Positions 18,724 through 40,528 of a stretch of DNA of 41,826 nucleotides are shown piece after piece (position 1 is the stretch's first letter; each line of letters starts with the position of its first letter). The stretch is from Nitrospirae bacterium GWB2_47_37. GTDB lineage: Bacteria > Nitrospirota > Thermodesulfovibrionia > Thermodesulfovibrionales > Dissulfurispiraceae. The notes beneath the pieces were generated by a model. The model was not told where the DNA came from. It saw nothing but the letters and a program-made list of their open reading frames with translations, and ran no database searches. Location of the stretch: positions 1 through 41,826 of the forward strand of contig MHDU01000060.1 of NCBI GenBank assembly GCA_001803635.1, in the 5' to 3' direction. The translations under genes were made by a program, and so were the position numbers.

Positions 18724-18746
18724 TTTAAACCTCCCTCATTTAAACA

Positions 18747-18775: not shown

Positions 18776-18801
18776 GTTATTTTTCCATCGGCATTTTCCA
18801 C

Positions 18802-18828: not shown

Positions 18829-18990
18829 AACTTTTCTTTATATTCCAAGAAGTTATCAGAATATTATGTAAAAAACTTCCGTCATCAAACCGTCAATGAA
18901 TCCTATCTTTTGTTATTAAATTTTGGGGCGCATCGAGGAATATTTTAATCTTCGAGCTGTTTCAGAGAATCGGGCTGCCATAAGTTTGAA

Positions 18991-19365
18991 CTATACCGGA
19001 ATCTCAAGCAATATCTTTCTATAATCCACATGCGGGACCACGCGCTTTTTATCCGCCTCGGTTTTTTCGAGGGTAACAAGCCCTATCTCAGATAGCATTT
19101 TTAGATCCTGATTCACATTTTTCAAGTCTCTGCCTAACATTTTTGCAAGCTCATAAACCGATTGAGGATGCTGTTCTCTTATCGTCTTAAGAATTAAAAG
19201 CCTGTTGTTGGTAAGTACCGATCTCATGGCATCTATAGAGTCAAAATATATTCCTTCCTCTTTTTTCACCTTTTTGCCGGCTTTCAGCTTTTCCCATGCC
19301 TCCGCAAAATCTTCCAGACTTTCCTTAAGACCCTTAATGCCTATGTCTATTTTTTTTACCTTCAT
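18991..19365 (-). CDS. TumA-like antitoxin (MarR/ArsR-type winged HTH)
   Basis: The 124-residue protein has a basic, helical N-terminal part with a FAEAWEKLKAGKKVKKEEGIYF style linker (residues ~18-42) and a winged HTH (MRSVLTNNRLLILKTIRE, then SVYELAKMLGRDLKNVNQDLKML). The C-terminus is a beta-rich tail ending in DYRKILLEIPV. Proteins of this kind are encoded next to DUF6516/TumE toxins and act as the antitoxin and DNA-binding repressor. AGAGGTGA lies before the ATG. It begins 9 nt after the toxin gene, so toxin is encoded first, which is normal for this pair. Confidence 0.8.
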   Translation of the reverse strand: MKVKKIDIGIKGLKESLEDFAEAWEKLKAGKKVKKEEGIYFDSIDAMRSVLTNNRLLILKTIREQHPQSVYELAKMLGRDLKNVNQDLKMLSEIGLVTLEKTEADKKRVVPHVDYRKILLEIPV

Positions 19366-19374
19366 AATTCACCT

Positions 19375-19650
19375 CTATTTTATTCTCTCTATGTCGTTAT
19401 AGAAATCCTCTATCAGGACATCCATATCTTTAAAGCGATAAAGATGTTCTCTGCTTCCATAATGCCTATGGTCTCCCTTCCCTTCCGCATTGTCGTATCC
19501 TATAATTCTTTTACCGTCTCTTATATAAACGAGCGAATATTTCAGCCCGTATGGTTTATCTTTTGAGTGCGGCACCCGCCATATTTTCATTTCAGTGATA
19601 TCGCCGTTGGGTTCGACATTTTTCCTATAAAATAAAAGGTCCACGCCCAT
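19375..19650 (-). CDS. TumE-like toxin (DUF6516 family)
   Basis: The protein has the family motifs EMKIWRVPHS, YGLKYSLVYI, RIIGYDNAEGKGDHRH and a final FIEDFYNDI-like helix (IEDFYNDIERI). DUF6516 proteins are toxins paired with an HTH antitoxin; the next gene fits that role. I start it at the ATG at 19650 (91 residues, MGVDLLFYRKN), as in homologues. Upstream in-frame codons up to 19734 are the antisense of the tRNA-Glu fragment and are not coding; the ATG at 19671 lies between the -35 and -10 boxes. The promoter places the transcript start at the ATG, so translation is probably leaderless. The biochemical activity of the family is not certain to me. Confidence 0.82.
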   Translation of the reverse strand: MGVDLLFYRKNVEPNGDITEMKIWRVPHSKDKPYGLKYSLVYIRDGKRIIGYDNAEGKGDHRHYGSREHLYRFKDMDVLIEDFYNDIERIK

Positions 19651-20917: not shown

Positions 20918-21838
20918 ATGCGCTTCGTCTCCGTTGCAATAACACTATGTCTTCTTGTCGTTTCATGCGGCCAGAAACCCGAGGATATAGCCAAGGTAGA
21001 GCCTAAAAACATCAGGGAAAGCGCCTTTACCATCGCAATACTTCCCGAACAGAACGTCTTCGAGCAGAAAAAACGATATAAGCCCCTCGCGGAGTATCTG
21101 TCGAAAAATCTCAATATGAACGTAAAAATAAAACTCCTCGACAGCTACGGCTCCATTTACGATGAAATTAAGAACAAAACCATAGACGGCGCCTTTTTCG
21201 GAAGCTTTAATTATGTCCTTACAAAGGCGAGGGCAGATATCGAACCTGTAGCCCGTGCCTTGGGAACCGGCGGCAATTCCAACTATAAAGGCATTATATT
21301 TACGAGAAAAGACACCGGCCTGACCGCCGATGTAAAAACATGGAAAGACAAAAGAATCGCGCTCGTGCATGAGGTGACGACGGCGGGGTACGTGTTTCCG
21401 GCATGGCACCTGAAAAAAAACGGGGTTGCAAGCATCTACAACTACTTCGGCAAGATTATCTTTTCGGGAAGCCATGACGCGGCCATACTCTCCGTTTTTA
21501 AAGGACAGGCGGATATAGGAGCGGCAAAGGATTTAATACTTCAAAAACTGCTCTCCGAAAATCCTGCGATAAAAAACGATATCGTCATACTCGCCGGTTC
21601 GGTTGCAGTGCCTTCCAACAGTCTTTGCCTGAGGAGAGGCGTAGACGGCAAAATAAGAGAGTCGTTGAAGAAATCCTTGTTATCTATGCATCATAATGCC
21701 GACGGCAAAACCGCGCTTCAGGCGCTGGACGCATCCAAGTTCGTGGAGACCGCGGACTCAGAGTTCAACGTCCTCAGGCAGATGGCGAAGGATATAGGCT
21801 TAGACATCAAATTATACCCGTTCAGGGGCAACAGATGA
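20918..21838 (+). CDS. PhnD-like periplasmic substrate-binding lipoprotein, linked to a sensor kinase
   Basis: The 306-residue protein has a lipoprotein signal peptide ending in LLVVSC, so Cys17 should be lipidated. It has the PhnD/phosphite-binding fold features: FTIAILPEQ, YKPLAEYLSKNLNM, DGAFFGSFNYVL, and a KDKRIALVHEVTTAGYVFP central segment. Such proteins normally deliver phosphonate or phosphite to an ABC transporter, but no permease or ATPase is here. Instead the gene overlaps by 4 nt a heme-site kinase, followed by its regulator. It likely acts as a periplasmic ligand-binding co-sensor. The ligand cannot be read from sequence; oxyanions are plausible. No Shine-Dalgarno is present. Confidence 0.85.
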   Translation: MRFVSVAITLCLLVVSCGQKPEDIAKVEPKNIRESAFTIAILPEQNVFEQKKRYKPLAEYLSKNLNMNVKIKLLDSYGSIYDEIKNKTIDGAFFGSFNYVLTKARADIEPVARALGTGGNSNYKGIIFTRKDTGLTADVKTWKDKRIALVHEVTTAGYVFPAWHLKKNGVASIYNYFGKIIFSGSHDAAILSVFKGQADIGAAKDLILQKLLSENPAIKNDIVILAGSVAVPSNSLCLRRGVDGKIRESLKKSLLSMHHNADGKTALQALDASKFVETADSEFNVLRQMAKDIGLDIKLYPFRGNR

Positions 21839-23421
21839 AAAAGAAATTAATATTAGGGCTCGGCCTCGTGTTTTTAATATCCGCTATAAGCGCGATAGTC
21901 GTAATAAAAAATTTAGACAATATAGTCGTAAACCAGAAGCTCATCCACGAGCAGGACATTATTATAGGCAAATACAATGAAATGCTTTTTCAGATGAAAG
22001 GCGCGCAGTCCGAGCTTTACAGGCATCAGGCGGGTTATTCCCGCAATATAGATGACCTCGTAAATTACATAGAATCCTTTGACGACAACACGGATTTTTT
22101 ATCCCGGCAATATTCCTCGCACCACCGGGACATCGCGTGCATGCAGTGCCACTCTAAAATAGAGGAAAGGCTGACCTCCCTTTCGGCAATATTCTCCGAA
22201 ATAGAAGGCCACATAAAGCAATATAAGCAGGATATGAGCATTCTCATAACTACAAACGACAGGAGCCAGATGCGGATACTCGAAAAAACCGCTACACAAA
22301 AAGGCAATACCATTATCGGCCTGCTCGAAAAAATAAGGCACGCGGCCGACAAGATGAGGGATGAAATAAAAAACAAGAGAAACATACTTATAAACAGATC
22401 GAGGAATATGATTTCCATCACCATAGCTTTCGGTTTTATACTCTCCATGGCAATATTCATAGTGGTAATCAAGGGTATTACCGGCCCTATAAACGCACTG
22501 ATAAGCGGTATTCAGAAAATCGCAGGCGGGGACTTTTCACAGCGAGTGGAGGTCAGGACAAAGGACGAAATAGGCTTTATGGCAGAGGCCTTCAATAACA
22601 TGACCGAAAAACTCAGCACAATCATGGCAGAGAAAGACGGCCTGCTCAAAACTCTTCAGGGCTTCAACGAGGAATTGGAAAAAAAGGTCAAAGAGGCGAC
22701 CGAGAAACTCAGGCTGGCTCAGGAAAACATGGTAAGGACCGAAACCCTTGCCGCTGTAGGCACACTTGCCGCAGGCGTATCGCATGAGATAAGCACTCCG
22801 CTTAACACAATAATCGGCTTTACTCAACTTACCCTCTCGGAGCTTGACGACGCCAATCCCGTAAAAGGAGACCTCAGGGTTATAGAGCAGGAGGCCGTAA
22901 GGTGCAAAAGGATTGTTCAGGGCCTTCTAAATTTCGCGAAACCGCAAAAATACGAAGAAAAACTCACCGACATAAACAATATCATCGAAGAAACCATTTC
23001 GCTTATTGAATACCAGCCGTCAATGAAAAAAATAGTCATCAAGAAAAATTTCGATAAAGACCTCGTTTCGATAGAGGCCGATCCCATGCAGTTAAAGCAG
23101 GTATTTCTCAATCTCATACTCAATGCCGTACAGGCGATGCCCGAAGGCGGAGACCTCATAATAACGACAGGGAACGCGGATAAAGACATCGAGATATCCA
23201 TATCCGACACCGGCGCGGGCATACCCGAAGAAGAACAGCAGAAGATCTTCCAGCCCTTCTATACCACAAAGAAAGAGGGCACAGGGCTCGGCCTCTCCAT
23301 ATCTTACGGCATAATAAAAGGGCACGGAGGAGAGATATTCATTAAGAGTTCGCAGGGAAGCGGCACCACATTCAGAATATCCATACCCGCGAAACAAAAT
23401 GTCGGGAGCGGCGGAGAATAA
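21835..23421 (+). CDS. Membrane sensor histidine kinase with a periplasmic CXXCH heme-binding site and HAMP
   Basis: TM1 lies at about 4-25 and TM2 at about 194-214. Between them is a mainly helical periplasmic domain with CMQCH at residues 102-106, preceded by SSHHRD whose His residues could be distal heme ligands. A HAMP domain (GITGPINALISGIQKIAGGDF is cut over residues ~214-235) and a coiled coil lead to HisKA (H-box SHEISTPLNT) and HATPase ([33 protein letters not shown]). It overlaps the PhnD-like gene by 4 nt and the response regulator follows directly, so the three form one signalling operon. It probably phosphorylates the NtrC-type regulator at 23422. Heme attachment is a motif-based prediction. 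Confidence 0.9.
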   Translation: MKKKLILGLGLVFLISAISAIVVIKNLDNIVVNQKLIHEQDIIIGKYNEMLFQMKGAQSELYRHQAGYSRNIDDLVNYIESFDDNTDFLSRQYSSHHRDIACMQCHSKIEERLTSLSAIFSEIEGHIKQYKQDMSILITTNDRSQMRILEKTATQKGNTIIGLLEKIRHAADKMRDEIKNKRNILINRSRNMISITIAFGFILSMAIFIVVIKGITGPINALISGIQKIAGGDFSQRVEVRTKDEIGFMAEAFNNMTEKLSTIMAEKDGLLKTLQGFNEELEKKVKEATEKLRLAQENMVRTETLAAVGTLAAGVSHEISTPLNTIIGFTQLTLSELDDANPVKGDLRVIEQEAVRCKRIVQGLLNFAKPQKYEEKLTDINNIIEETISLIEYQPSMKKIVIKKNFDKDLVSIEADPMQLKQVFLNLILNAVQAMPEGGDLIITTGNADKDIEISISDTGAGIPEEEQQKIFQPFYTTKKEGTGLGLSISYGIIKGHGGEIFIKSSQGSGTTFRISIPAKQNVGSGGE

Positions 23422-25047: not shown

Positions 25048-26961
25048 ATGAACAGAAAGATTTCAGTATTACTGCTTGTCCTCTTTTTCGCCGCCGGCTT
25101 CGTAGTCTACGGCACGCAGGCAGAAGGCAAAAAGGCGGGGGACAATACCCTCAAGGGCACTGTGCAGGACGCATCCGGACAGGCAATCGAAAATGCCGCC
25201 GTATATTTAATTCCTTCGGCGGATGTCGAGGAAATGGCAAAGACATCCATAGAGATTAAAAGGGACTCTAAAAACGACGAGCCCCTCGAAGACAACTTAG
25301 CCGCCAATAAGGATAAGTATCAGAAAGGCGCTACCGACAAGAAAGGAAACTTTAAGATTTCCAATGTCGCGGACGGCAAGTATTTCATCTATGTCGAACC
25401 GGCCGACAAAAACTATCTGCCCGGCGGAGATAAGTCAACAAAGGCCGTCTCGACCGCGGAATTCAAGGGGAAACCGGTAAAAATCCTCTTATCGGGAAAT
25501 ATCCCTGCCGATGCTACATTTGTCGGGACGTCAAAGTGTCTAATGTGCCACAAAGCGTATGCGAGCGAAAAGAAAACCCTTCACAAGCTCGGCATCCGTG
25601 TGGCAGGGAAAGACAGCAAGCTTCAGGATTCATCAAGGTTTCCGGACTTCGACAAGGGACTTAAAAAACTCACGGCAGGGTCGAAGCTCTATGTTTACGG
25701 ATACGATAAAAAGAGGAGCTTCGACAAATACATGATTTCCGAAAAGGCGCCTTCAGATCCCGCATCTGTGAGCTTTACCGCTACCTTCTTCAAGGACAGC
25801 GACGGAAAGATAAAATTCAAAACAGAGAATATGAAAGATACTTCGGATCCGGCAAGGACATACACCGTAGAGATGACCTACGGAGGAGGCCTTTACAAGC
25901 AAAGATACCTTTACAGGGTAGGGAAAAACCTCTTCCCGTTCGTCCAGTACAATCCGGAAGGAAATGACGGCTACGGCGACAGGACAAGAATGGTATTCAG
26001 GGATTACCACGGCGACTGGCTGTATAACGAACAGACAAAGAAGCTTGCAGATCCCCCATTAGCAAAATCTTTTGATAAAGAATGCGCCTCCTGCCATTAC
26101 ACAGGCTATACCCTTAAACACCTCGAGTCGGGAGAATATATCGCGGGAGCCGTGAATGATCCCAACGGTGAGTTTGATATCGACGGCGACGGCATACCCA
26201 ATGAACTGAACATAGGCTGCGAGACATGCCACGGTCCCGGTTCCGCGCATGTAAAGGCTCCGAAAGGGAAAAAGGCATCCATGATCGTCAGCCCGGGCAA
26301 ACTCGCGGCAGAGAGGTCGTCGGTAATTTGCGGACAGTGCCACAGCAGGCCTCAGGGTAATCTCAAAAATGATCAGCCGGTAAACAAAGATAACAAGATG
26401 ATGATCCCCGGCACGAGCAGGAACGACTACCTGACAAATTATACTCTACGGGAAGACGCGGCAAAGGGGGCTTACTGGCCCGACGGGATACATTCCAAGG
26501 CCCATCACCAGCAGTATACGGACTTCATTAAGTCGAAGAAACACAGGAACGGAAATCAGCTTTTATCATGTGACGACTGCCATGACCCTCATGGAATGAC
26601 TACCGTAAAGCACCAGTTACGGGCGGAGATACGCGATGCGAAAAATTCCCTCTGCGCAAACTGCCATAAGGCGAATGCCGACATTAAAAAGCATACCTCG
26701 GCAAAAGTAGGCATGGAGCACGGCATGAAGATAAACTGCGTTGATTGCCACAGCACAAAGACCATGCAGACAGGCGCAGGATTAGGCAAGGGTCTTACAG
26801 GCAAAGACGGCAAAAACTACTGGGTGAACGATATAACTTCTCATGTATTCGATGTGCCAAAAAAAGATAATGTAGGAGTAAAAGGCACCGATCCGGGTAA
26901 GGCAATGCCTATTCCTTATACCAACGCATGCGGCAAATGCCATAACGTCAGTAATCTGTAA
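25048..26961 (+). CDS. Octaheme c-type cytochrome 1 with N-terminal carboxypeptidase-regulatory-like domain
   Basis: The 637-residue secreted protein has a Sec signal ending near GTQA (residue 25). Residues ~33-118 form a carboxypeptidase regulatory-like beta domain (LKGTVQDASGQAIENAAVY, TDKKGNFKISNV). Eight CXXCH motifs follow: CLMCH (164-168), CASCH, CETCH, CGQCH, CDDCH, CANCH, CVDCH and CGKCH. It has the family pattern C-TCHGPGSAHV at heme 3 and a YKQRY motif between hemes 1 and 2, as in the other four octaheme cytochromes here (cytochrome c554-like group). The beta domain suggests an outer-surface or matrix position. An AAGGAG site precedes the ATG, with sigma-54 module A upstream and a terminator after it. 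The electron partner is unknown. Confidence 0.88.
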   Translation: MNRKISVLLLVLFFAAGFVVYGTQAEGKKAGDNTLKGTVQDASGQAIENAAVYLIPSADVEEMAKTSIEIKRDSKNDEPLEDNLAANKDKYQKGATDKKGNFKISNVADGKYFIYVEPADKNYLPGGDKSTKAVSTAEFKGKPVKILLSGNIPADATFVGTSKCLMCHKAYASEKKTLHKLGIRVAGKDSKLQDSSRFPDFDKGLKKLTAGSKLYVYGYDKKRSFDKYMISEKAPSDPASVSFTATFFKDSDGKIKFKTENMKDTSDPARTYTVEMTYGGGLYKQRYLYRVGKNLFPFVQYNPEGNDGYGDRTRMVFRDYHGDWLYNEQTKKLADPPLAKSFDKECASCHYTGYTLKHLESGEYIAGAVNDPNGEFDIDGDGIPNELNIGCETCHGPGSAHVKAPKGKKASMIVSPGKLAAERSSVICGQCHSRPQGNLKNDQPVNKDNKMMIPGTSRNDYLTNYTLREDAAKGAYWPDGIHSKAHHQQYTDFIKSKKHRNGNQLLSCDDCHDPHGMTTVKHQLRAEIRDAKNSLCANCHKANADIKKHTSAKVGMEHGMKINCVDCHSTKTMQTGAGLGKGLTGKDGKNYWVNDITSHVFDVPKKDNVGVKGTDPGKAMPIPYTNACGKCHNVSNL

Positions 26962-27213: not shown

Positions 27214-27332
27214 ATAACTATCCCTAACTTACTTAATAACAAGAAAAAAGGGGGGGGTGAGAGAGGAAAAAATTATCGATAGTCCGGTGAGTTAATAATC
27301 AGCATTAAAAATTCTAAGAGGAGGGAAGTTTG

Positions 27333-28400
27333 ATGAAAAAATTCGTTATGTTTTTTATGTGTGCAGTTGTAATGTTATGGGCATTCGGCTCGGCAAATGC
27401 CGCCGAATATGCGGGGTCGGACAGCTGTTTCAAATGTCATCCGGACCACGTCAACGACTGGAAGGTGTCAGGGCATCCTTACAAATTGCAAAAGGCAGAG
27501 ACTGCCAAATCATGGATGCTGCCTTTGCCGAAGGGTTATTCATGGGATGATATTTCCTATGTGATAGGCGGCGCTCACAAAAAATCAAGATATATGGACA
27601 AAAAGGGATACATTATCACTATGACCGGCCCGAATAAAGACGTGCCGGGAAAGAACCAGTACAATCTTGAGACAGGCACATGGGGAGATTACCATCCCGG
27701 AGAAAAAGGCAAAAAATATGACTGCGGCAGATGTCATACGACAGGCTATAAAAAAGAGGGCCATCAGGACGGTCTTGAAGGCATAACCGGCACATGGGCG
27801 GCCCCCGGAATTCAGTGCGAGGCATGCCACGGCCCTGCAAGCGACCATGTAACAACAGGGGATAAATCCAAGGTAAAGGTCGACAAATCAGCAGCCCTCT
27901 GCGGGCAGTGCCATGTCAGAGGTGACGCCACCAAGGTGCCGGCCGGCGGCGGTTTCATCAAACATCATGAGACTTATCCCGAGATACTGGCAGGCGTCAA
28001 AAAGAACTTTCAGTGCGTAACCTGCCACAATCCTCACAAGAGGGCAAAGTTCAGCATAAAAACGGATTGTTCGGCATGTCATACCAAACAGGCTGAAGCT
28101 TACGGAATGTACAAAGGCAAGAGAATGCACGATGTCGGCATCAAATGCATCGAGTGCCATATGCCTAAGACTACAAAATCAGCAACAGCCGCGAGCAAGA
28201 CTCAGGGAGACATCAGGACGCATGTCTTCAAGATCAATACCGATCCGAAGGCAAGCATGTTCTATGATGAAGAGGTAAAAGGCAAAAAAGCTACATTTGC
28301 CAAGGGATTTGTAACCCTTGATTTCGCATGTCTGAACTGCCATAAAAATAAGGATATGAAATGGGCAGCGGAAATGGCAAAAGGGATACACAAGAAATAA
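27333..28400 (+). CDS. Octaheme c-type cytochrome 2 (periplasmic)
   Basis: The 355-residue protein has a signal peptide cleaved after SANA, then mature AEYAGSDSCFKCH. Eight CXXCH motifs are present: CFKCH, CGRCH, CEACH, CGQCH, CVTCH, CSACH, CIECH and CLNCH. CEACHGPASDHV at heme 3 and CHMPK after heme 7 mark the same family as the other cytochromes here. It lacks the extra beta domain of cytochrome 1 and has no membrane anchor, so it is probably a soluble periplasmic carrier. I start at ATG 27333 (GAGGAGG 8 nt upstream); the TTG one codon earlier is unnecessary. Expression should come from module B; a strong terminator follows. Confidence 0.9.
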   Translation: MKKFVMFFMCAVVMLWAFGSANAAEYAGSDSCFKCHPDHVNDWKVSGHPYKLQKAETAKSWMLPLPKGYSWDDISYVIGGAHKKSRYMDKKGYIITMTGPNKDVPGKNQYNLETGTWGDYHPGEKGKKYDCGRCHTTGYKKEGHQDGLEGITGTWAAPGIQCEACHGPASDHVTTGDKSKVKVDKSAALCGQCHVRGDATKVPAGGGFIKHHETYPEILAGVKKNFQCVTCHNPHKRAKFSIKTDCSACHTKQAEAYGMYKGKRMHDVGIKCIECHMPKTTKSATAASKTQGDIRTHVFKINTDPKASMFYDEEVKGKKATFAKGFVTLDFACLNCHKNKDMKWAAEMAKGIHKK

Positions 28401-28911: not shown

Positions 28912-28940
28912 TTGTAAAACGGCCTTAGTTGTGCTAAAGT
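28912..28940 (+). promoter_or_regulatory. Promoter of the multi-TM kinase gene
   Basis: TTGTAA (28912-28917) and TAAAGT (28935-28940) are spaced 17 bp, with the -10 ending 5 nt before the ATG at 28946. This predicts a leaderless mRNA. Confidence 0.5.
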
Positions 28941-28945
28941 CAGCA

Positions 28946-30394
28946 ATGCCGATTATCGACCTATTTTCGGACACCCCCCGCACCTGCTTCTTTTATTTTT
29001 TCTACGGCCTGACATTTTTCTTTCTCGGCATATCCATTGCGGTAAAGGATATGAGTGAAAGCGAACTGAAACTCGCGAAAAGCATGTGGCTGCTCGGAGG
29101 GTTCGGATTTACTCACGGGGCGCATGAATGGCTCGAACTCTTCCTGCTTTTACAGCGGCAGCATATGTCGCCCGAACAACTGTTTATGATCAAATCCATA
29201 ACCCTTTTCGTGCTGATCCTCTCTTTTTTTCTGCTCCTGATGTTCGGGCTTACGATTATCCGCACCCTCGATAAGAAACACCTGCAGTGGATAAGATGGA
29301 CCCCGGCGATCTGTTTTCTGGTGTGGGTCGTTTATCTTTGGAATTATGAATTGAAATTCGATATCGAATTCCTGAAAAAAGCGGACACCATATCGAGGAA
29401 TACGTTCGGATTCATCGGAGGGGTCGCAACCGCCCATTCGCTCTCTACTTACTCCTCCGAGATACGATACCTGAGCCCTTCCGCATCGAAAAATCTCTTT
29501 CGCGCGGGCATAACCTTCTTTTTCTACGCCGTCTTCGAAGGGATGATGCCTTCCTTTAAAGTCGCCCCCATTCTCTCATTTCCTATGGTGGAAGTTTTCC
29601 GGAGCGTATCGGCCGCCCTTATCGCCTGCTTTATCATAAAGGCCCTCAATATCTTCGACGTAGAAATGCGTAAGAGAATAGAGCAGCAGTTTAAGAAATT
29701 GGCGCAGTCGGAAAAACTGCTCTCGCTGGGACAGCTTGCCGCGGGCATCGCTCATGAAATAAACAATCCGCTCACCAATGCGTCTCTCAGCGTGCAGATG
29801 ATCAGGTCTAAACTGGAAGACAGCGGCATCGATGCCGACATGTCGAAAAAGCTCGCATCTATAGAGAACAACGTGGACAGGGCCGCGACCATAGCAAAAG
29901 AACTGCTGCAGTTCTCGCGCCAGAGCGAAACGGACTTTGTCCTTTTAAATATCCATGAGGTAATAAAAAGAACCCTGACGCTTTTGAGATACAGATTCAA
30001 GGGCATAACGATACGGCAGGATATTCAGGACGTTCCGGAAATAACAGGCGACCCCGTAAAGCTGGAGCAGGTCTTTATAAATGTCCTTACCAACGCAGTC
30101 GAAGCGATGAACGGAGTAGGAGATATTAATATCTCTACGGCTTACGACAAAGGTTATGTCAAAATCGAAATATCCGATACCGGAGGGGGGATCTCCGCGG
30201 AACATCTTACTAAAATATTCGATCCGTTCTTTACCACTAAAGAGGTCGGCAAAGGCACGGGACTCGGCCTTTCAATCTGTTACGGCATAATGAACCAGCA
30301 TAACGGCATTATAGAGATATCGAGTTCGGAGGGCAAAGGGACAACAATAATAATAAAGCTTCCCGCGGCAAAAAAGGATAAGAAAAAATTATGA
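28946..30394 (+). CDS. Multi-TM sensor histidine kinase (no heme motif)
   Basis: The N-terminal ~230 residues form about seven hydrophobic segments, with conserved-looking [12 protein letters not shown] in the first loop, resembling MASE-type membrane sensor domains. A short coiled coil leads to HisKA ([15 protein letters not shown]) and HATPase ([31 protein letters not shown]). It lacks a CXXCH, unlike the other three kinases of this part. I start at ATG 28946 (MPIIDLFSD); a GTG at 28931 is possible but sits in the promoter. No Shine-Dalgarno is present. The next gene overlaps by 4 nt and is its likely response regulator. Confidence 0.87.
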
Positions 30395-31044
30395 AAAAGA
30401 TCCTGATAACGGATGACGATGCCGAATTAAGGGCTAAACTTTCGGAAATCCTGAAAGAAGCGGGATATCTTACGGATGAAGCGGCATCAGGCAAAGAGGC
30501 TTTAAAAAAGGCTGTTTCCGATGAATTCGATATAGTTCTCCTCGATTTAATGATGCCGAAGATGAGCGGCATGGATGTCCTCGCGGAGATCAAAAAGGTA
30601 CGGCCGAGAACGAAGGTTATCATGATCACAGCGTTTGCGACCGTAGAGAATGCCGTGGACGCCGTAAAAAAGGGAGCGAGCGATTACATATGCAAACCCT
30701 TCAAGATCGAAACCCTGCTCGCTACGATAGGCAGGGTGCTCGAAGAGATCAAATTCGAAGACAGCGCAAATAAATTAGACCTCGATTACACATTCAGCAC
30801 CCTGTCGAATCAGATAAGGAGAAATATCATAAAATTGCTCGGCTCGAAAGCAGGCATGCGTTTTGTGGAAATAACGAAAGAGCTCGGCATAGAAGAAGAG
30901 CACACAAAGCTGGCGTTTCATTTGAGAATGCTTAAAGAAACGGGGATCATCGAGCAGGACCCCGAAAAACTGTATTCTCTCACAAAAGAAGGCGAAAAAA
31001 TTATGGACTACCTAAGGACGATAGAAAACTACATTTTGACATAA
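30391..31044 (+). CDS. Response regulator with receiver plus ArsR-like winged-helix output
   Basis: The 217-residue protein has a canonical receiver (DDD pocket, Asp in VLLDLMMPKMSG, Thr in IMITAF, Lys in CKPFK) and, after a linker to about residue 130, a winged helix of the ArsR/archaeal type: TLSNQIRRNIIKLLGSKAG, ITKELGI, FHLRMLKETGIIEQD and a wing YSLTKEGEKI. This output type is uncommon among bacterial response regulators, which usually use OmpR, NarL or NtrC outputs. It overlaps the kinase gene by 4 nt. It lies 296 bp upstream of the cytochrome-NrfD operon, whose leader holds two strong dyads, so it may regulate that operon; this is inference. Confidence 0.87.
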   Translation: MKKILITDDDAELRAKLSEILKEAGYLTDEAASGKEALKKAVSDEFDIVLLDLMMPKMSGMDVLAEIKKVRPRTKVIMITAFATVENAVDAVKKGASDYICKPFKIETLLATIGRVLEEIKFEDSANKLDLDYTFSTLSNQIRRNIIKLLGSKAGMRFVEITKELGIEEEHTKLAFHLRMLKETGIIEQDPEKLYSLTKEGEKIMDYLRTIENYILT

Positions 31045-31144: not shown

Positions 31145-31170
31145 ATTCTGTCAATTATTGTTGACAGAAT
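31145..31170. promoter_or_regulatory. Operator-like dyad 1 upstream of the cytochrome-NrfD operon
   Basis: A perfect 10-bp inverted repeat ATTCTGTCAA-N6-TTGACAGAAT. Its TGTCAA/TTGACA halves resemble the dyad at the pilS promoter. It may bind a dimeric regulator. Confidence 0.55.
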
Positions 31171-31259
31171 ACCGTATTTGCTGAACAACCTTTTCATTGA
31201 ATCCGTACGCATCGAAGGCATATCCTTACTATCATGTTCGCAGAATCTCGAAATCTTAT

Positions 31260-31340: not shown

Positions 31341-32558
31341 ATGAAGAAATTACCATGGATTATCGGCATCATCTTCGTCGCAACCCTCGCGTTGGTGATT
31401 GTTACGACAATCACGCTCTTCAAAAAGAAACAGCCGCCGAAAGGAGTCTTCAAGGATATGGTCAATGCGACCTTTGTGGGGTCGGACGAATGCAGAAAGT
31501 GTCATGAGAGGGTATATTCCAACTGGAAAGGCACCCTTCATGCGCGGATGCTGCAGGACGCAAAGAAAAACCCGGCGGTAATTATCGGCAACTTCGATTC
31601 GCCTACCGCGCCGAAGACATTGAAGAAAGACGACATTGCTTACACTATCGGCAATGAGTGGAGACAGCGGTATCTCGTCAAAAAAGGAGACGACCTTATT
31701 GTGCATCCGGCGCAATATAACATAAAGACTAAGCAATGGGATGATTCGCCTAAAAACGGCGTATGGTTCAAAAACTGCGCGGGCTGCCACGCAGTCGATG
31801 TCAATCCCGCGAATAAGACATTCAAAGAAGCGGGCGTAGGCTGCGAGTCGTGCCACGGGGCGGGCAGCAATCATGTCAAGGCCGCCCTCGGTTTTGAAAC
31901 TCAGACTATTGTGAACCCGGCAAAACTTACTCCTCGGGCCGCAGCGACCATATGCGGCTCCTGCCACAGCACAGGCACGGATAAAAGCGGTAAATACGCG
32001 TATCCTGTAAATTACAAGGCGTCTCAGGAAGCGAGTCTGGAATTATTATTCAACCTGTCTTCCCCTGAAAGGACTCCCGACAGGTTCTGGCCGAGCAAGG
32101 ATTCCAAGCATGCATATCAGCAGTATATAGATTGGGAGAAAAGCGAGCACTCAAAGGCCGGGGTAACATGTTACACCTGCCACAGCGTGCATGAAAAAAC
32201 AACCCTCTCCTTCCAGACAAGGAAATCCGGAGACGAACTCTGCAAGGACTGCCACAAACCGGTAGACATTCAGGTCAAATCGGCCCATGCGATACATACC
32301 TTCGGAAGCTGCGTAGCCTGCCATATGCCTAAAACGGTAAAGGAGAGCGCCCATTCCATCGATGAGAGAAGCCACACCTTCAAATTCCTGAGCCCGAACG
32401 AGAGCTTTAAATACGGAGGGATCAACAACCAGCCTAACTCGTGCAGCGGCTGCCATTACCACAAAGACACGCCTCTATCAACCCTGATGGGCGCGTGGTC
32501 TGCGGTCAAACAGCGCGGCACGCCAAAACCCGTTGAGACTCAAAGGGAGGGAAAATAA
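31341..32558 (+). CDS. Octaheme c-type cytochrome 3, N-terminally membrane anchored
   Basis: The 405-residue protein starts with an uncleaved-looking membrane anchor (about residues 5-27, followed by KKKQPPK). It has eight CXXCH motifs: CRKCH, CAGCH, CESCH, CGSCH, CYTCH, CKDCH, CVACH and CSGCH. WRQRYL between hemes 1 and 2, CHGAGSNHV at heme 3 and CHMPK after heme 7 are the family marks. Start is ATG 31341, directly after an AAGGAGG site; the open frame extends to 31197 but that region holds the leader dyads. It heads an operon of three octaheme cytochromes, an Fe-S protein and NrfD. It is probably the membrane-proximal electron acceptor of that module. Confidence 0.9.
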   Translation: MKKLPWIIGIIFVATLALVIVTTITLFKKKQPPKGVFKDMVNATFVGSDECRKCHERVYSNWKGTLHARMLQDAKKNPAVIIGNFDSPTAPKTLKKDDIAYTIGNEWRQRYLVKKGDDLIVHPAQYNIKTKQWDDSPKNGVWFKNCAGCHAVDVNPANKTFKEAGVGCESCHGAGSNHVKAALGFETQTIVNPAKLTPRAAATICGSCHSTGTDKSGKYAYPVNYKASQEASLELLFNLSSPERTPDRFWPSKDSKHAYQQYIDWEKSEHSKAGVTCYTCHSVHEKTTLSFQTRKSGDELCKDCHKPVDIQVKSAHAIHTFGSCVACHMPKTVKESAHSIDERSHTFKFLSPNESFKYGGINNQPNSCSGCHYHKDTPLSTLMGAWSAVKQRGTPKPVETQREGK

Positions 32559-32559
32559 C

Positions 32560-33960
32560 ATGAAAAGATTACTAACCATACTGCTTCTCGCTGCTTTGTT
32601 GATTATCCCGTCGCTTGTCTATACCTCCGACTATATCGAGGGTATAATCTCGAATATCTCCAAATCAAAATATGTAGGCTCAAAGGTATGCGCGGGTTGT
32701 CATAAGGACTACTACGACAGTTGGATCACGACCCTTCACCCGTATAAAGTGAGGCCGGCAAGCGAGAACACCGTAGTAGGAGATTTTATCAAAAACAACA
32801 CCCTCGTCACCAAGGGCGTTAAGAATTTTCAGGGGATGACGGAGTACAGTTCGAAGATGTCGGTAAAAGACGGCAAATTCTATGTTACAACCATCGGCCC
32901 CGACAACAAAGAACATGCCTACCCGATAAAATACACGCTCGGCGGGATATGGAAGCAGAGATACATTACCGAATTCCCGAACGGGGCATTGATGGTGCTT
33001 CCCGTTCAGTGGAATATCGATACGAGGAGTTGGACGGACTATCACAGCCTTAAGGCCGGAAACCCCGGAAGCGGCAAATACTGGGCGGACAAAAACCGCA
33101 CATGGCAGTATCAGTGCGGCACATGCCACGTAACGGGGCTCCAGATAAACTACGACGCCAAGAAAGACAGGTTTAATACCACATGGGCAGACAGCGGCGC
33201 AGGCTGCGAGGCATGCCACGGCGCGGGAAGCGAGCATGTCATCGCGCCTATGGACAAAAAAACAGCCACAATAATAAACCCCGCGAAGATACCTGACGCA
33301 AAGAGAGCCGCGCAGACCTGCGGCCAGTGCCATAACAGGGGAATATCGGTAAAAGAGACAAAGGTTGCCATAGGCCCGAAGCATTACGAATACCCCAACG
33401 GAGAAGCAGGCTATATACCCGGCAAGGTGCTCGACAACTACTATGTTGAAAAACCAGTTGAATGGCCTGACGGCAGCCCGAAGGCACATCACCAGCAGTA
33501 CAATGACTGGAAAAAATCCAAACATGCTGAGGCAGGGGTAAACTGCTGGAATTGTCATCAAGTGCACGGCAAAGGCGTCATAAGCAAACATTCATTGAGG
33601 GAAGCCGGAGACAAATTGTGCCTGAAATGCCACCAGACCACCAATGAGATAACACACGGCATACATGCGAACAGCCACTGCATATCATGTCATATGCCGA
33701 AGACCGCGCAGAACGCGGTTAAAAAAGGAGATGCGTTATTCGACATAGGCAGCCACAGGTTCAAGTTCGTAAGCCCTGCGGAGACAATAAAACACGGCGG
33801 TCTTAACAAACAGCCCAATTCATGCAACGCGTGTCACTATCATGAAAAAGACAAGCCTGAGGATATGCTGAATGTTATAGACAACGTCAAAAACAAGCGG
33901 AGAGAGGCGGTCGGACTGGGCGTGCGGCAGACGATAAATGAAAAACCTGCAAAAAAATAA
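32560..33960 (+). CDS. Octaheme c-type cytochrome 4
   Basis: The 466-residue secreted protein has a signal peptide (MKRLLTILLLAALLIIPS...) and eight CXXCH motifs: CAGCH, CGTCH, CEACH, CGQCH, CWNCH, CLKCH, CISCH and CNACH. KYTLGGIWKQRYITEFPNG, CHGAGSEHV and CHMPK place it in the same family as its neighbours. It starts 1 nt after cytochrome 3 with AGGGAGG before the ATG. It is a close paralogue of cytochrome 5 over the whole length, including identical blocks around most hemes, so the two are a tandem duplication. The role is probably periplasmic electron transfer from the Fe-S/NrfD module. Confidence 0.9.
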   Translation: MKRLLTILLLAALLIIPSLVYTSDYIEGIISNISKSKYVGSKVCAGCHKDYYDSWITTLHPYKVRPASENTVVGDFIKNNTLVTKGVKNFQGMTEYSSKMSVKDGKFYVTTIGPDNKEHAYPIKYTLGGIWKQRYITEFPNGALMVLPVQWNIDTRSWTDYHSLKAGNPGSGKYWADKNRTWQYQCGTCHVTGLQINYDAKKDRFNTTWADSGAGCEACHGAGSEHVIAPMDKKTATIINPAKIPDAKRAAQTCGQCHNRGISVKETKVAIGPKHYEYPNGEAGYIPGKVLDNYYVEKPVEWPDGSPKAHHQQYNDWKKSKHAEAGVNCWNCHQVHGKGVISKHSLREAGDKLCLKCHQTTNEITHGIHANSHCISCHMPKTAQNAVKKGDALFDIGSHRFKFVSPAETIKHGGLNKQPNSCNACHYHEKDKPEDMLNVIDNVKNKRREAVGLGVRQTINEKPAKK

Positions 33961-33987
33961 GATGCGGCGATTAAGGAGGTGCATAAT

Positions 33988-35397
33988 ATGAAAAAATTAT
34001 CATTAATAGGAATGGCTGCGCTGGCGGTGATAACAATATTATCCATCGGCAACGCGGCATACATAGAGGACGTAATCGAAACCGTAGCAAAGGCCGAATA
34101 TGTCGGGTCCGAGCGCTGCGCGGGCTGCCACGACAAGACATACAACAGTTGGCTGACGACGATACATCCTTACAAGGTAAGAAATGCCAATGAGAACACG
34201 GTTGTCGGGGACTTCGTAAAGAACAATACCTTCCCCGTAAAGAATATCCAGGATGTGCCCGGAATAACCGAATACACCACAAAGATGTCCGCGAAAGACG
34301 GCAAGTATTCCATAACCACCATAGGACCCGACGGAAAAGAGCATACCTATCCCATAAAATACACTCTCGGCGGGATATGGAAACAGAGATATATTACAGA
34401 GTTCCCGAACGGAGCGTTAATGGTTCTCCCTATGCAGTGGAATGTGGATACGAGGACATGGTCTGACTATCACGGATTTAAAGGCGCAAAGCCCGGAAGC
34501 GGCAAATACTGGTCCGACAAAAACCGCACATGGCAGTATGGGTGCGGCACGTGTCATGTTACAGGACTCAAGATAGGTTATGACAAAGAGAAGGATAAAT
34601 TTAACACAACATGGGTTGACAGCGGCGCGGCGTGCGAGGCATGCCACGGACCCGGGAGTCTACATGTAGCAGCAAGGGGCGATAAAAAGGTTGCTACTAT
34701 AATCAACCCTGCAAAGATACCTGATGCAAGAAGAGCGGCTCAGGTATGCGGGCAGTGCCATAACAGAGGCCAGTCTGTAAAAGAGACTGGGGTGGCAATA
34801 GGACCTAAGGTTTATGATTACCCGAATGGCGAGGCGGGATATGTGCCGGGCAGAGTACTCGACAACTACTATGTTGAAAAACCCAGCAACTGGCCTGACG
34901 GAAGCCCGAAGCTGCACCACCAGCAGTATAACGACTGGAAGAAAAGTCAACATGCTCAGCACGGTGTCAATTGTTGGGATTGCCATGCTGTGCACGGTAA
35001 AGGAGCGATAAGTAAACATTCATTAAAAGAAGGCGGAGACAAGTTATGCCTTAGCTGCCATAAGGTATCCAACGAATTGATGCACAGCATTCACAGTTCT
35101 AATAACTGCGTGGGCTGCCACATGCCGAGAACGTCTAAAAACGCGGTGCAAACCGGGGATTCAGCGTACGATATAGCCAACCACAGATTTAGGGTCGTAA
35201 GCCCTGCAGAGACTATTAAGGCAGGCGGCCTTGCAAAACAGCCCAATTCGTGCAACGGATGCCATTACCACGAAAAAAAGGATTCACCGGAGGATATGTT
35301 AAAGGCCATCGAGACCATGAGGAACAAGAAGAGGGAATCGCTCGGCCTCGGATCGCAGGCAATACCGACAGTAAAGGAAGAAGCTCCTAAAAAATAA
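33988..35397 (+). CDS. Octaheme c-type cytochrome 5, tandem paralogue of cytochrome 4
   Basis: The 469-residue secreted protein has a signal peptide (MKKLSLIGMAALAVITIL...) and eight CXXCH motifs: CAGCH, CGTCH, CEACH, CGQCH, CWDCH, CLSCH, CVGCH and CNGCH. Blocks such as KYTLGGIWKQRYITEFPNG and the PDGSPK-HHQQYNDWKKS region are shared with cytochrome 4. An AAGGAGGT site lies 7 nt before the ATG at 33988; the alternative upstream start at 33979 would sit on that site. The duplication may provide forms of different redox potential or different partners. A 29-nt gap leads to the Fe-S gene. Confidence 0.9.
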   Translation: MKKLSLIGMAALAVITILSIGNAAYIEDVIETVAKAEYVGSERCAGCHDKTYNSWLTTIHPYKVRNANENTVVGDFVKNNTFPVKNIQDVPGITEYTTKMSAKDGKYSITTIGPDGKEHTYPIKYTLGGIWKQRYITEFPNGALMVLPMQWNVDTRTWSDYHGFKGAKPGSGKYWSDKNRTWQYGCGTCHVTGLKIGYDKEKDKFNTTWVDSGAACEACHGPGSLHVAARGDKKVATIINPAKIPDARRAAQVCGQCHNRGQSVKETGVAIGPKVYDYPNGEAGYVPGRVLDNYYVEKPSNWPDGSPKLHHQQYNDWKKSQHAQHGVNCWDCHAVHGKGAISKHSLKEGGDKLCLSCHKVSNELMHSIHSSNNCVGCHMPRTSKNAVQTGDSAYDIANHRFRVVSPAETIKAGGLAKQPNSCNGCHYHEKKDSPEDMLKAIETMRNKKRESLGLGSQAIPTVKEEAPKK

Positions 35398-35426
35398 GCG
35401 CAGCTTAATAAATATGGAGAAAGACA

Positions 35427-36260
35427 ATGGAATGGGAAGACACCGGACTTACAAGGCGTAATTTTATAAAACTTCTCGGCGCTGCGCCTGCGTCTCTCGC
35501 TGTCGGGCTCCCCCCCGACAGCGGGAGACATGCAAAACTTGTCGATACGTTTAAGTGTATAGGATGCAGAAGGTGCATGTCCGCCTGCAAGCGCTGGAAC
35601 AAACTGCCTCCATACGAAGTCCCGGAGTCCATGGTAAGGGATATGGACGGGACTACTTATACGGTAGTGAACTTCATGCGCGACAAGAGGAATGCCGAAG
35701 CAGGCAAGTTCGTAAAATGGCAGTGCCAGCACTGTATAAAACCGGCATGCGCCGGCGTCTGCCCTGTTACCGCAATAACTAAAAATCCTGTAACGGGCGC
35801 CGTTGTGGTAGACGAGACAAAATGCATGGGCTGCAAATACTGCTATCAGGCGTGTCCTTTTAAGGTGCCGCGCTTCGATTTCCATAAAAGGATAACGAGA
35901 AAATGCCACCTCTGCTACAACAGGGTGCCTAAGATAAAGCCGGCATGCGTGGCAGGCTGTCCGGTTCAGGCATTGGATTACGGTGAAAGGGACTTGATGC
36001 TTGAGAAAGCAAGAGAAAAGGCAAAACTTGTAAAAGGTTATGTGCTGGGAGAATACGAAGCCGGCGGGACGGATGTGATAACTATCCTTCCATCTCCCCC
36101 TGAAGAACTGGGGCTTACGGTTGCCGCAAAAAAAGTTATCAATGAGGATATAGACAGGCTCAGGATAAGTTCAACAGGCTTCTTTACGGGCGCGGCCGTA
36201 GCGGCCGCTTTGTATCTCTACGGGCGCGGGAACGGCGGCGACGGAGATAAAGATAAATAG
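35427..36260 (+). CDS. Tat-exported four-cluster Fe-S electron transfer protein (HybA/NrfC-like)
   Basis: The 277-residue protein has a twin-arginine signal (LTRRNFIKLLG) and four Cys groups of the DmsB/NrfC type: CIGCRRCMSAC, CQHC...CAGVC, CMGCKYCYQAC and CHLCYN...CVAGC, predicting four [4Fe-4S] clusters. A C-terminal hydrophobic segment (FFTGAAVAAALYLYG) would anchor it, as in HybA. It would pass electrons between the NrfD quinone site and the octaheme cytochromes at the periplasmic face. It lies between cytochrome 5 and NrfD (9 nt gap), and no molybdopterin catalytic subunit is present, so this is an electron-transfer module rather than a reductase. Confidence 0.92.
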   Translation: MEWEDTGLTRRNFIKLLGAAPASLAVGLPPDSGRHAKLVDTFKCIGCRRCMSACKRWNKLPPYEVPESMVRDMDGTTYTVVNFMRDKRNAEAGKFVKWQCQHCIKPACAGVCPVTAITKNPVTGAVVVDETKCMGCKYCYQACPFKVPRFDFHKRITRKCHLCYNRVPKIKPACVAGCPVQALDYGERDLMLEKAREKAKLVKGYVLGEYEAGGTDVITILPSPPEELGLTVAAKKVINEDIDRLRISSTGFFTGAAVAAALYLYGRGNGGDGDKDK

Positions 36261-36269
36261 GAGGAAGGC

Positions 36270-37487
36270 ATGATTCCGGAGAAAGATAAAATTTTTTATT
36301 GGTGGATAAGTCTCCTGTTGGCCTTTATTGTGCTCGGAGCCTTCGTAGTCGGACTGAGCTTTATAGAAGGAGCGGAGATACTCGAAATATCGCCGCATAT
36401 CTCGTGGTCTATGCTCGTTGCGGTATACGTGTTTTTTGTCGTATCCGGATCGGGCATGTGCATCGTAACCTCGTTAGGGCATGTCTTCGGCATTAAGCGC
36501 TTCGAGTTGATAAGCAAGAGAGGTGTCTTCTTCGCATCAACCGCCATAATAGCCGGGCTTCTCGCGATACTCCTGCACTTGGGGCATGTCGAGAGGGCGA
36601 TGGTTTACGTGTACCTCAGCCCGAATCTCAAGTCGGGCATATTATGGATGGGATTGTTCTACACTGTATATCTCTCCTTCGTGATAATCGAATACTGGCT
36701 GCTCGCCCGCGCGGAAATGGCGAAAATAGCCAACGACTCGACCGGTTACAGGCAGGTTTTTTACGGGCTCCTTACGTTGGGAATGAGAGACGAATCCGAA
36801 AAATCCGTACATCTCGATCATAAGCTTGCAAAGATGGCGGGCGCGGCAGCGCTCGTTACAGGGCTTGCGGCGGTAAGCACTCTCGGAGCCGTCTTCGGGC
36901 ATCTCGAATCCCGGGCGCTATGGTACGGCGCTTTCTATCCCGCATACTTTATACTTTCCGCAACCTTTTCAGGGCTTTCTTTCTTCCTCTTCATAATAAT
37001 CCTTACTTATCGGGTAAACGGAGAAGAAATGAGCAATAAGCTGAGACGTTTGGTAAAAGAACTCGGAAAACTGCTTGCGCTTATGCTTTCGATAGGGCTT
37101 CTCTTTACGGCATGGAGGATATTTGCAAGCGTAAGCAATCCCGAAACCGCAGGCTCGATAATGGTTCTGCTGAACGGACCGTTCAGCTTTTCATTTTATG
37201 TGTTCGAGATATTGCTTGGAACCGTTATCCCGATAGCGATCCTCCTCTCGCCCGATCTTACGATTAAAAAGATATTCGTGAGTTCGCTGCTTACGGTGAT
37301 AGGCCTCTTTGTAATGAGATACGACTTCCTTACCGCAGGGCAGGTTTATCCCGGATTATCCGACAACCTTCCTTCATACTTTCCGGCTTTCTTTGAGATA
37401 GTCATAACTATGGCTATAATCGCTCTCTTCGGATTTATGTATACGCTCGGAGCGCGGTTACTGCCCATGAAGGAGGAAGGACATTGA
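36270..37487 (+). CDS. NrfD/PsrC-family integral membrane quinone-interacting subunit
   Basis: The 405-residue protein has about ten membrane segments and the PsrC/NrfD style of N-terminal helices with short loops (MIPEKDKIFYWWISLLLAF at the start). Members bind menaquinone/menaquinol near the periplasmic side and exchange electrons with the Fe-S partner. An AGGAGG site precedes the ATG. As last gene of the cytochrome 3-4-5/Fe-S/NrfD set it completes a layout like the Geobacter Cbc complexes (cytochrome, Fe-S, NrfD). It probably oxidises menaquinol and feeds the cytochromes; the reverse direction is possible. Confidence 0.92.
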   Translation: MIPEKDKIFYWWISLLLAFIVLGAFVVGLSFIEGAEILEISPHISWSMLVAVYVFFVVSGSGMCIVTSLGHVFGIKRFELISKRGVFFASTAIIAGLLAILLHLGHVERAMVYVYLSPNLKSGILWMGLFYTVYLSFVIIEYWLLARAEMAKIANDSTGYRQVFYGLLTLGMRDESEKSVHLDHKLAKMAGAAALVTGLAAVSTLGAVFGHLESRALWYGAFYPAYFILSATFSGLSFFLFIIILTYRVNGEEMSNKLRRLVKELGKLLALMLSIGLLFTAWRIFASVSNPETAGSIMVLLNGPFSFSFYVFEILLGTVIPIAILLSPDLTIKKIFVSSLLTVIGLFVMRYDFLTAGQVYPGLSDNLPSYFPAFFEIVITMAIIALFGFMYTLGARLLPMKEEGH

Positions 37488-38812: not shown

Positions 38813-40528
38813 ATGAAAGGCTACATTCTCATTATCGGCGCTCTCGTTGTCATCATGTCCGTCCTTATTACCCTGAATATCTTCTTTCAGCAGTCCCTCG
38901 AAACGGAGATAGCAGACCAGTTCAGCAGACAGCAGTCTCTACTCTCGACTGCCATAGCGGACAATATCAAGACGTATCTGCGCCATGAAAAGCAGGATTT
39001 GCTGCTGATCTCCCGTCTTCTCGCTGAAAAGGATATCAAAACACGGGAGGACTTTCTCAGGTTGAAATTCGATCGTGAACAGGAGGGCGTGCTTCGCACG
39101 AGTTACGGCCTCCTCGATAGTAAAGGAGGTCTTATTTTCTTTAAAGGCGATAAAAAGGCGCCGAAAACCCTTATTACCGACATCAGGGCAAGGATGGGGA
39201 AGATGAGGCCCGATGCCTCTTTTATGATCGAAACTCCGGATTCGCTTTACATTATCGCTCCTGTATACCGGGAGGAAGAACTTCTCTACATAAATTTTCT
39301 TGGCGCCCTTAAATACGATATCGCCGATAACTTCATAAGCTTTCTGCAGCACAAGGCAAAGGGACGCGCGTGGATGATGGACAATAAGGGCAACCTCCTC
39401 TATCACCCTTCCCGTCCGGACATGGTCGGAAAGAACCTCTACCGCGCGGATGCGTCCTGTTTTAAATGCCACGTCAGCTTCGATCTCGAAAAGAAAATAC
39501 TGGACGGCAAAACGAGCGGGCTCAACAGGCACATCGCCCCTTACGGAGAAAACAAGATCATCGCATTCTCGAAGGCTGAAATGGACGGGATATCGTGGAT
39601 AATCGCCGTCTCCATACCCTATTCCGAGGTAACGAGCGCCACAAAACAGAGCATGACTCTTTACTCATATCTCATTATTTCCATATTTCTTACCACGGGC
39701 ATTATCTCCGCGGCCATGATCGTTTCCAATAAAAAAAGAATAAAGGCCGAAGAAAAGGCAAAGCGGGAAGAGGCTCTTGAAAAGTACGCGTCGGAATTGG
39801 AAAGCAAGGTAGAGGAAAGAACCGCCGAGTTGATCCACTCCGAAAAGCTGGCTTCCCTCGGACGGCTTGCGGCCGGATTTGCCCATGAGATAGGGAATCC
39901 CATGACATCCATTTTTTCCTTCGCGCAGATACTCGCGAAAATGGAGACCGACCCGTTCAAAAAAAAGAGCATAGATACTATCAGGTTCCACGTAAACAGG
40001 GTATCTGAAATATTGAAACAACTCTCCGGGTTCTCCAAGAGGCCATCAGGAGAGGTCAGCGAATGCAACGTAAACGAGATCATAGAAAATTCGGTCAACC
40101 TTGTCCGGTATGACAAAAGAGCGAAGGACATTATTTTTGAAAAAGAACTCTCCCCCTCTTTGCCGCCGTTGATCATTGACGGCAGCCAATTATCGCAGGT
40201 GACGGTAAACCTCGTGCTGAATGCCGTGGATGCCATGCCCGAAGGCGGAACGCTCACGGTAGAAAGCCGGGCCGAAGCCGGTTCCATAGTCGTGAGGGTT
40301 CGCGATACCGGCATGGGAATCAAAAAAGAAGACATACCGAAGATATTCGACCCTTTTTATACTACCAAGGAAAAGGGCACGGGATTAGGGCTCGCGGTGA
40401 GTTATGACCTTGTAAAAAAAATGAACGGCTCTCTAACCGCTGCGAGCGACGAGGGAGCGGGCTCCATTTTTACCATAACCATACCTTATGAAAACGACGA
40501 AACCGATCGGAGGGCTAATGCAGCCTGA
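38813..40528 (+). CDS. Sensor histidine kinase with periplasmic Cache-like domain and a CXXCH heme-binding site
   Basis: The 571-residue kinase has TM1 at about 5-25 and TM2 at about 283-305, enclosing a ~255-residue Cache-type sensor (YGLLDSKGG, WMMDNKGNLLYHPSRPDMVGK is split over residues 187-207). CFKCH at residues 216-220 is a covalent c-heme motif inserted in the membrane-distal sensor part. A coiled coil leads to HisKA (AAGFAHEIGNPMTS) and HATPase (NLVLNAVDAMPEGG, DTGMGIK, GTGLGLAVSYD). AAGAAGG precedes the ATG. It is behind module C, so it is probably induced together with cytochromes 1 and 2. Its regulator follows with an 11-nt overlap. Confidence 0.9.
   Translation: MKGYILIIGALVVIMSVLITLNIFFQQSLETEIADQFSRQQSLLSTAIADNIKTYLRHEKQDLLLISRLLAEKDIKTREDFLRLKFDREQEGVLRTSYGLLDSKGGLIFFKGDKKAPKTLITDIRARMGKMRPDASFMIETPDSLYIIAPVYREEELLYINFLGALKYDIADNFISFLQHKAKGRAWMMDNKGNLLYHPSRPDMVGKNLYRADASCFKCHVSFDLEKKILDGKTSGLNRHIAPYGENKIIAFSKAEMDGISWIIAVSIPYSEVTSATKQSMTLYSYLIISIFLTTGIISAAMIVSNKKRIKAEEKAKREEALEKYASELESKVEERTAELIHSEKLASLGRLAAGFAHEIGNPMTSIFSFAQILAKMETDPFKKKSIDTIRFHVNRVSEILKQLSGFSKRPSGEVSECNVNEIIENSVNLVRYDKRAKDIIFEKELSPSLPPLIIDGSQLSQVTVNLVLNAVDAMPEGGTLTVESRAEAGSIVVRVRDTGMGIKKEDIPKIFDPFYTTKEKGTGLGLAVSYDLVKKMNGSLTAASDEGAGSIFTITIPYENDETDRRANAA

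Follow-up and report, generated by a model that had tools for sequence, protein, structure and literature searches.

A putative menaquinol:octaheme-cytochrome oxidoreductase encoded without a molybdopterin subunit in a Nitrospirota genome

Gene content and two subtypes of octaheme cytochromes

Here, we describe an operon of Nitrospirae bacterium GWB2_47_37 (assembly GCA_001803635.1) that encodes three octaheme cytochromes c (OctA, OctB, and OctC), an iron-sulfur (Fe-S) protein, and an NrfD-type membrane subunit. The stretch subjected to our analysis (the window) is one whole contig (MHDU01000060.1; 41,826 nt) of this 2.47-Mb genome, which is 98% complete and is referred to below as G000. The five plus-strand genes fill positions 31341 to 37487, from the ATG of OctA to the stop codon of NrfD, with intergenic gaps of 1, 27, 29, and 9 nt (Table 1), and no molybdopterin gene occurs within this five-gene set. 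A preliminary description of the window had placed three octahemes, a Tat-signal four-cluster Fe-S protein, and NrfD, with no molybdopterin gene, at exactly these coordinates, and our analysis confirmed that content. It had also suggested looking for the five-gene order in related genomes. Judging from gene order, the arrangement is not due to chance, because all five genes recur in identical order in a second genome (G041; L043/L052).

TABLE 1 Features of the octaheme locus
Feature	Coordinates	Strand	Supporting observations
OctA, octaheme cytochrome c with N-terminal signal-anchor helix	31341..32558	+	8 CXXCH; model helix 4-28; clade membership
OctB, secreted octaheme cytochrome, OcwA/NrfA/MccA superfamily	32560..33960	+	8 CXXCH; heme-2 His-His retained
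OctC, secreted octaheme cytochrome	33988..35397	+	8 CXXCH; 69% identical to OctB; predicted fold OcwA-like
Fe-S protein, HmcB/HybA/FdnH-like	35427..36260	+	Four [4Fe-4S] motifs, twin-arginine motif, hydrophobic C-terminal helix
NrfD-type integral membrane subunit, putatively quinol oxidizing	36270..37487	+	PF03916 match
Membrane sensor histidine kinase	28931..30394	+	Orthologs (61-62% identity) at the equivalent position in L052 and L110
Response regulator, ArsR/winged-helix output domain, probable operon regulator	30391..31044	+	Orthologs by octaheme genes in four genomes
Conserved operator-promoter element (predicted)	31145..31210	+	Inverted repeat ATTCTGTCAATTATTGTTGACAGAAT (31145-31170), then GAACAACCTTTTCATTGAATC (31183-31203)
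Further octaheme cytochrome of the superfamily, possible partner	27330..28400	+	8 CXXCH; sister of G312 (L103) octaheme
Further octaheme cytochrome with N-terminal carboxypeptidase-regulatory/transthyretin-like domain, possible partner	25048..26961	+	Tree position uncertain

Although OctA, OctB, and OctC carry eight CXXCH motifs each, a tree of 32 related octahemes built by maximum likelihood placed OctA in a separate ten-member clade (100/99), which rules out that the three are equivalent copies. Thus, the earlier view of three cytochromes of one family masks two subtypes that the tree separates (OctA and OctB/OctC). Fe-S and NrfD genes adjoin OctA in every clade member with sufficient flanking sequence. 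The N terminus of OctA is a 25-residue helix (residues 4 to 28 in a structure model) with no obvious cleavage site, which suggests that OctA is held in the membrane by an N-terminal anchor; this helix alone was taken from the model, whose predicted local distance difference test (pLDDT) score of 55 was too poor for a fold search.

OctB and OctC are secreted near-duplicates with ordinary signal peptides. In G041, the two proteins are mutual closest relatives (77% identity, and no difference over one block of 40 alignment columns), a pattern suggestive of either separate duplication or gene conversion there. The window OctC is nearest to the copy in a third genome, G234 (78%), whereas the window NrfD is nearest to that of G041 (76% versus 49% to G234); by these conflicting nearest relatives of its subunits, the cassette is a mosaic across G000, G041, and G234.

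Four cluster motifs (Fer4) account for 16 cysteines of the Fe-S protein, which also has a twin-arginine motif (TAT_signal model, E = 0.004, 17.5 bits, under the 22.7 cutoff) and a hydrophobic C-terminal helix. Its best curated match is HmcB, beneath the cutoff; the three Hmc models gave 22.9 bits (HmcA; cutoff, 400), 165 bits (HmcB; 420), and 35.7 bits (HmcC; 550). NrfD matches PF03916 at 117.7 bits, and its profile matches solved ActC/NrfD structures. The unit therefore has what defines an NrfD module, namely an NrfD/PsrC-type membrane subunit and an adjoining four-cluster Fe-S protein, and lacks the molybdopterin catalytic subunit that defines a complex iron-sulfur molybdoenzyme (CISM). Judging from its relatives, OctA, NrfD, and the HmcB/HybA/FdnH-like Fe-S protein make up a core that is conserved as a set, which gives good support to the proposal that the unit is a quinol:cytochrome oxidoreductase lacking a molybdopterin subunit.

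Gene neighborhoods, regulator, and operator

Close NrfD relatives (E <= 1e-60) were uncommon, being present in 4 of 396 Nitrospirota genomes, and ten loci were found when two peptide patterns, which restrict what could turn up, were scanned over 84,980 species genomes. G041 belongs to a different family of the same order, and its locus (L052) contains the full series of histidine kinase, response regulator, OctA, OctB, OctC, Fe-S protein, and NrfD, with a TauE gene between the response regulator and OctA. In G234, of the same order, the unit is split: kinase, response regulator, operator, and OctA lie on one contig (L110) and OctC, Fe-S protein, NrfD, and TauE on another (L057).

G041 and G234 have thus conserved the kinase and response regulator together with the operon, and an ortholog of the response regulator precedes octaheme genes in G312; by this conservation, the pair (28931 to 31044) belongs to the unit. 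The predicted operator begins with the inverted repeat ATTCTGTCAATTATTGTTGACAGAAT, whose 10-bp arms are perfect. The element is bipartite, with GTGAATTnTTCTTCACA and GAATAACTTTTCTATTGAATC spaced by 16 to 17 nt, and is found upstream of an octaheme gene in the window and three other genomes. Since the consensus was built from the three other genomes with the window excluded, the window score comes close to an independent test: the window element scored 30, compared with 34, 34, and 35 in the other genomes and with maxima of 23 to 27 in 12 random sequences of the window's length and composition. When the whole genome was scanned for more operator sites, most of those returned had one mismatch, and no clear regulon emerged. 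We suggest that the adjacent response regulator binds the predicted operator.

The OctA-FeS-NrfD core is present in Nitrospirota, SAR324, and contigs labeled Deltaproteobacteria. At four loci (L053, L056, L058, and L060), it adjoins an 11-heme cytochrome, a second Fe-S protein, a Phs/Arr/Dms-group molybdopterin enzyme, and TorD, and at L055 the contig ends inside the 11-heme gene. The SAR324 molybdoenzyme is strongly ArrA-like (1123 bits, beneath the 1600 cutoff). Because homologous modules adjoin reductase-type molybdoenzymes, the core would oxidize quinol for a terminal reductase. This lends indirect support to the electron outlet named in the preliminary description, the direction of flow itself being deduced from these neighbors. 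By gene content alone, the molybdoenzyme-beta subunit-TorD part of the relatives resembles the MOLY cluster, reported as a marker of sulfur disproportionation (PMC12998232).

Given these neighbors, the window module might feed a molybdenum reductase whose gene lies at another place in the genome, and G000 indeed has other CISM-type proteins, at about 33% identity to the enzyme of the relatives. However, G000, G041, and G234 contain no ortholog of that enzyme (best identity, 33%), although the copies in other Nitrospirota are 57 to 69% identical to it, and OctB/OctC stand in its place in the operon. We therefore regard a distant molybdoenzyme as highly improbable. A catalytic subunit that always accompanies the module would have spoken against an oxidoreductase in its own right; such a subunit adjoins it in several relatives, but not in all. 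Judged by operon position, OctB and OctC occupy the reductase slot in the window.

Elsewhere, OctB/C-type octahemes occur in FeS-NrfD-Oct-11heme-FeS-Mo-TorD operons or adjoin NrfH/NapC-family cytochromes. The operon with the order Fe-S protein, NrfD, octaheme, 11-heme cytochrome, Fe-S protein, molybdoenzyme, and TorD is widespread in Nitrospirota (L102, L105-L109, and L113), and the molybdoenzymes of L102 and L113 fall beneath every curated cutoff (PhsA/DmsA/ArrA). Three loci (L099, L102 at 17504-19490, and L114) combine an OctC-like octaheme with an NrfH/NapC-family cytochrome in an NrfHA-like layout. At L058 (7805-17083; SAR324), OctA-FeS-NrfD-11heme adjoins the ArrA-like arsenate reductase, a second Fe-S protein, and a TorD-like gene, which makes a quinol route to arsenate reductase other than CymA possible there.

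Relationship to OcwA and the heme-2 site

The best solved relative of the Oct-protein profile was OcwA of Thermincola (PDB 6i5b; E = 4e-44 and 9e-49), followed by a Carboxydothermus undecaheme cytochrome, MccA, and NrfA. The OctC model (pLDDT, 71; predicted template modeling score, 0.69) aligned with 6i5b at a Z score of 16.4 over 337 residues (root mean square deviation, 3.9), and the next scores were 11.4 and then 7.9 (MccA), with NrfA at about 6. Foldseek alone returned nothing for OctC at E <= 0.001 (top match, MccA at 2.2e-3), and a second aligner recovered OcwA. Accordingly, OcwA, the nonaheme cell-surface terminal reductase of Thermincola potens, is the best match of OctC in both sequence and fold, from which the Oct proteins differ in having eight hemes, their own Fe-S/NrfD quinol dehydrogenase and regulator, a diderm host, and three copies.

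In the profile alignment, Oct hemes 1-4 and 5-8 correspond to OcwA hemes 1-4 and 6-9, the set that has been equated with the hemes of MccA (PMC6703420). The fifth OcwA heme sits in an insertion absent from Oct, and the Oct proteins, with eight CXXCH motifs, are thus without the open heme 5 of OcwA. Heme 2 of OcwA is open beneath His281/282 (PMC6703420), and these residues correspond, by an inferred residue-number offset, to HHQQY in OctB and OctC. The His-His pair is retained in most OctB/C-type relatives, and it is lost in the window OctA and most other OctA proteins. Eight further His columns were invariant in the first nine-sequence alignment and are sufficient for bis-His ligation of the remaining hemes. 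Seven of the OctB/OctC hemes are probably bis-His ligated, and by analogy with OcwA, heme 2 would be open, with a pocket lined by His-His.

No Oct protein has a cysteine outside the eight CXXCH motifs, so that CXXCK, a CX15CH heme, and copper-site cysteines are all lacking. The hallmarks of the MccA/SirA octaheme sulfite reductase are a CX15CH-bound heme and copper-binding cysteines, and NrfA has a CXXCK catalytic heme; therefore, neither chemistry is copied. MccACD/SirACD nevertheless resembles the unit, as a superfamily octaheme served by an Fe-S protein and NrfD, but differs in the features just named, in the Z score of 7.9, and in lacking the additional membrane-anchored octaheme. Likewise, in NrfABCD and NrfHA an NrfA-superfamily cytochrome is fed by Fe-S/NrfD or by an NrfH-type partner, the same choice of partners as among OctB/C relatives, although the Oct proteins have eight hemes.

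These likenesses bear on whether OctB/OctC act enzymatically on a small soluble compound (nitrite, hydroxylamine, nitric oxide, or a sulfur oxyanion), in which case the operon would encode an NrfABCD- or MccACD-like reductase and not a route to a solid acceptor. OcwA, with two open hemes, does reduce nitrite and hydroxylamine (PMC6703420), but its nitrite turnover is merely ~1 per min and it does not reduce sulfite. The number and order of the Oct hemes are those of the MccA core, yet the heme and copper-site cysteines of the known enzymes are absent. OctB/C-type proteins adjoin NrfH-like quinol dehydrogenases, as NrfA does. A gene of the TauE/SafE (sulfite exporter) family accompanies the unit in G041 and G234, and a sulfur-oxyanion substrate is therefore possible, whereas no TauE gene lies beside the window operon. 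On balance, we consider a small-substrate enzyme rather unlikely.

Proposed electron route and wider context

With moderate confidence, we propose that the unit is a menaquinol:octaheme-cytochrome oxidoreductase and provides respiration with an electron outlet that needs no molybdoenzyme. NrfD would take electrons from menaquinol on the periplasmic side, and these would then reach OctA by way of the four-cluster Fe-S protein, which Tat would export and the C-terminal helix would tether. Membrane-anchored OctA would hand them on to secreted OctB and OctC, which would either reduce a terminal substrate themselves or donate electrons to an acceptor in the periplasm or at the cell surface. The up to 24 hemes of the preliminary description might sit in one complex, but OctB and OctC may instead be soluble partners or enzymes. 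Acting via the inverted repeat upstream of octA, the kinase and its winged-helix response regulator would activate the operon. The scheme rests on observed gene content, protein families, gene order, and operator conservation, on the subtype tree, and on the fold match and the correspondence of single hemes with OcwA, whereas the direction of electron flow, the formation of a complex, the open heme-2 site, the regulation, and the acceptor are all inferred.

Several observations weigh against this proposal. OctB and OctC have no lipobox, all of their cysteines lying inside CXXCH, and no outer-membrane conduit was seen, in a search that is not informative, since the MtrB/PioB porin model matched neither the window's genome nor control genomes. 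The likeness of OctC to OcwA does lend some support to an extracellular acceptor, one of the two options in the preliminary description. The C-terminal half of the OctC model is just moderately confident. Moreover, G041 OctB and OctC carry His-Arg instead of His-His, and a catalytic role is therefore not strictly conserved. Finally, dsrA was found in all four genomes checked with TIGR02064, so that the inward direction is possible, and the similar-looking Nhc modules of Desulfovibrio move electrons from cytochrome c3 to the quinone pool (PMC8076601).

In an inward-working module, of the kind put forward for Nhc of sulfate reducers, hydrogenase or formate dehydrogenase would reduce periplasmic cytochromes, from which electrons would pass through OctA-C, the Fe-S protein, and NrfD to menaquinone. 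The sulfate-reducer-type genomes with dsrA, HmcB as the top curated match of the Fe-S protein, and the fact that NrfD modules serve both directions (PMC8076601) would fit such a flow. Nhc and Hmc also combine a multiheme cytochrome, a four-cluster Fe-S protein, and NrfD without a molybdenum subunit, but their cytochromes are of the class III c3 type, whereas those of the window belong to the OcwA/NrfA superfamily and miss every curated cutoff (including HmcA, as given above), and related modules adjoin reductase-type molybdoenzymes. We hold an inward module to be unlikely.

Ohc is a similar transmembrane complex of sulfate reducers. Geobacter Cbc-type modules also share the general layout of a multiheme cytochrome, an Fe-S protein, and an NrfD-like subunit, and are alike in this general description alone.

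Counting the two upstream octahemes (Table 1), the region encodes five such cytochromes within some 10 kb. The genome has five Paired_CXXCH_1 matches, four of which fall in the window. The G312 (L103) sister of the octaheme at 27330-28400 has the same regulator and operator. Three sensor histidine kinases (13729-15339 on the minus strand, 21835-23421, and 38813-40528) carry CXXCH in their sensor part and are possible c-type heme sensors judging from this motif; a phosphonate-type binding protein (20918-21838) precedes one of them. A paralogous operon of NrfD, Fe-S protein, and a small multiheme cytochrome lies elsewhere in the genome (L005, 218-6672; G000:C44), and the kinase beside it resembles that at 38813, with CFKCH common to both sensor regions. 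A tandem pair of type IV pilin-like genes with nearly identical N termini is located at 1059-1870 (minus strand).

The family of each part is known. In the literature searched, which covered few subscription journals, we found no paper joining octaheme, NrfD, and Nitrospirae, nor one joining an OcwA-type cytochrome with NrfD, and the combination of three OcwA-type octahemes, an NrfD quinol dehydrogenase, and its own two-component system was not found there.

For electron disposal by uncultured subsurface Nitrospirota with sulfate-reducer genes, the locus offers a small unit amenable to experiment, with relatives of a characterized surface terminal reductase wired through NrfD to the quinone pool. 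Comparison across lineages shows the quinol dehydrogenase to be a module with an exchangeable terminal part, which is a molybdoenzyme in some cases and octahemes in others. More tentatively, and with considerable doubt, OctB and OctC may be terminal reductases of the OcwA/MccA type that need no molybdenum and constitute a new class, having replaced the molybdoenzyme and 11-heme cytochrome on the shared OctA-FeS-NrfD quinol dehydrogenase. If so, one portable membrane module would serve interchangeable reductases under its own two-component control.

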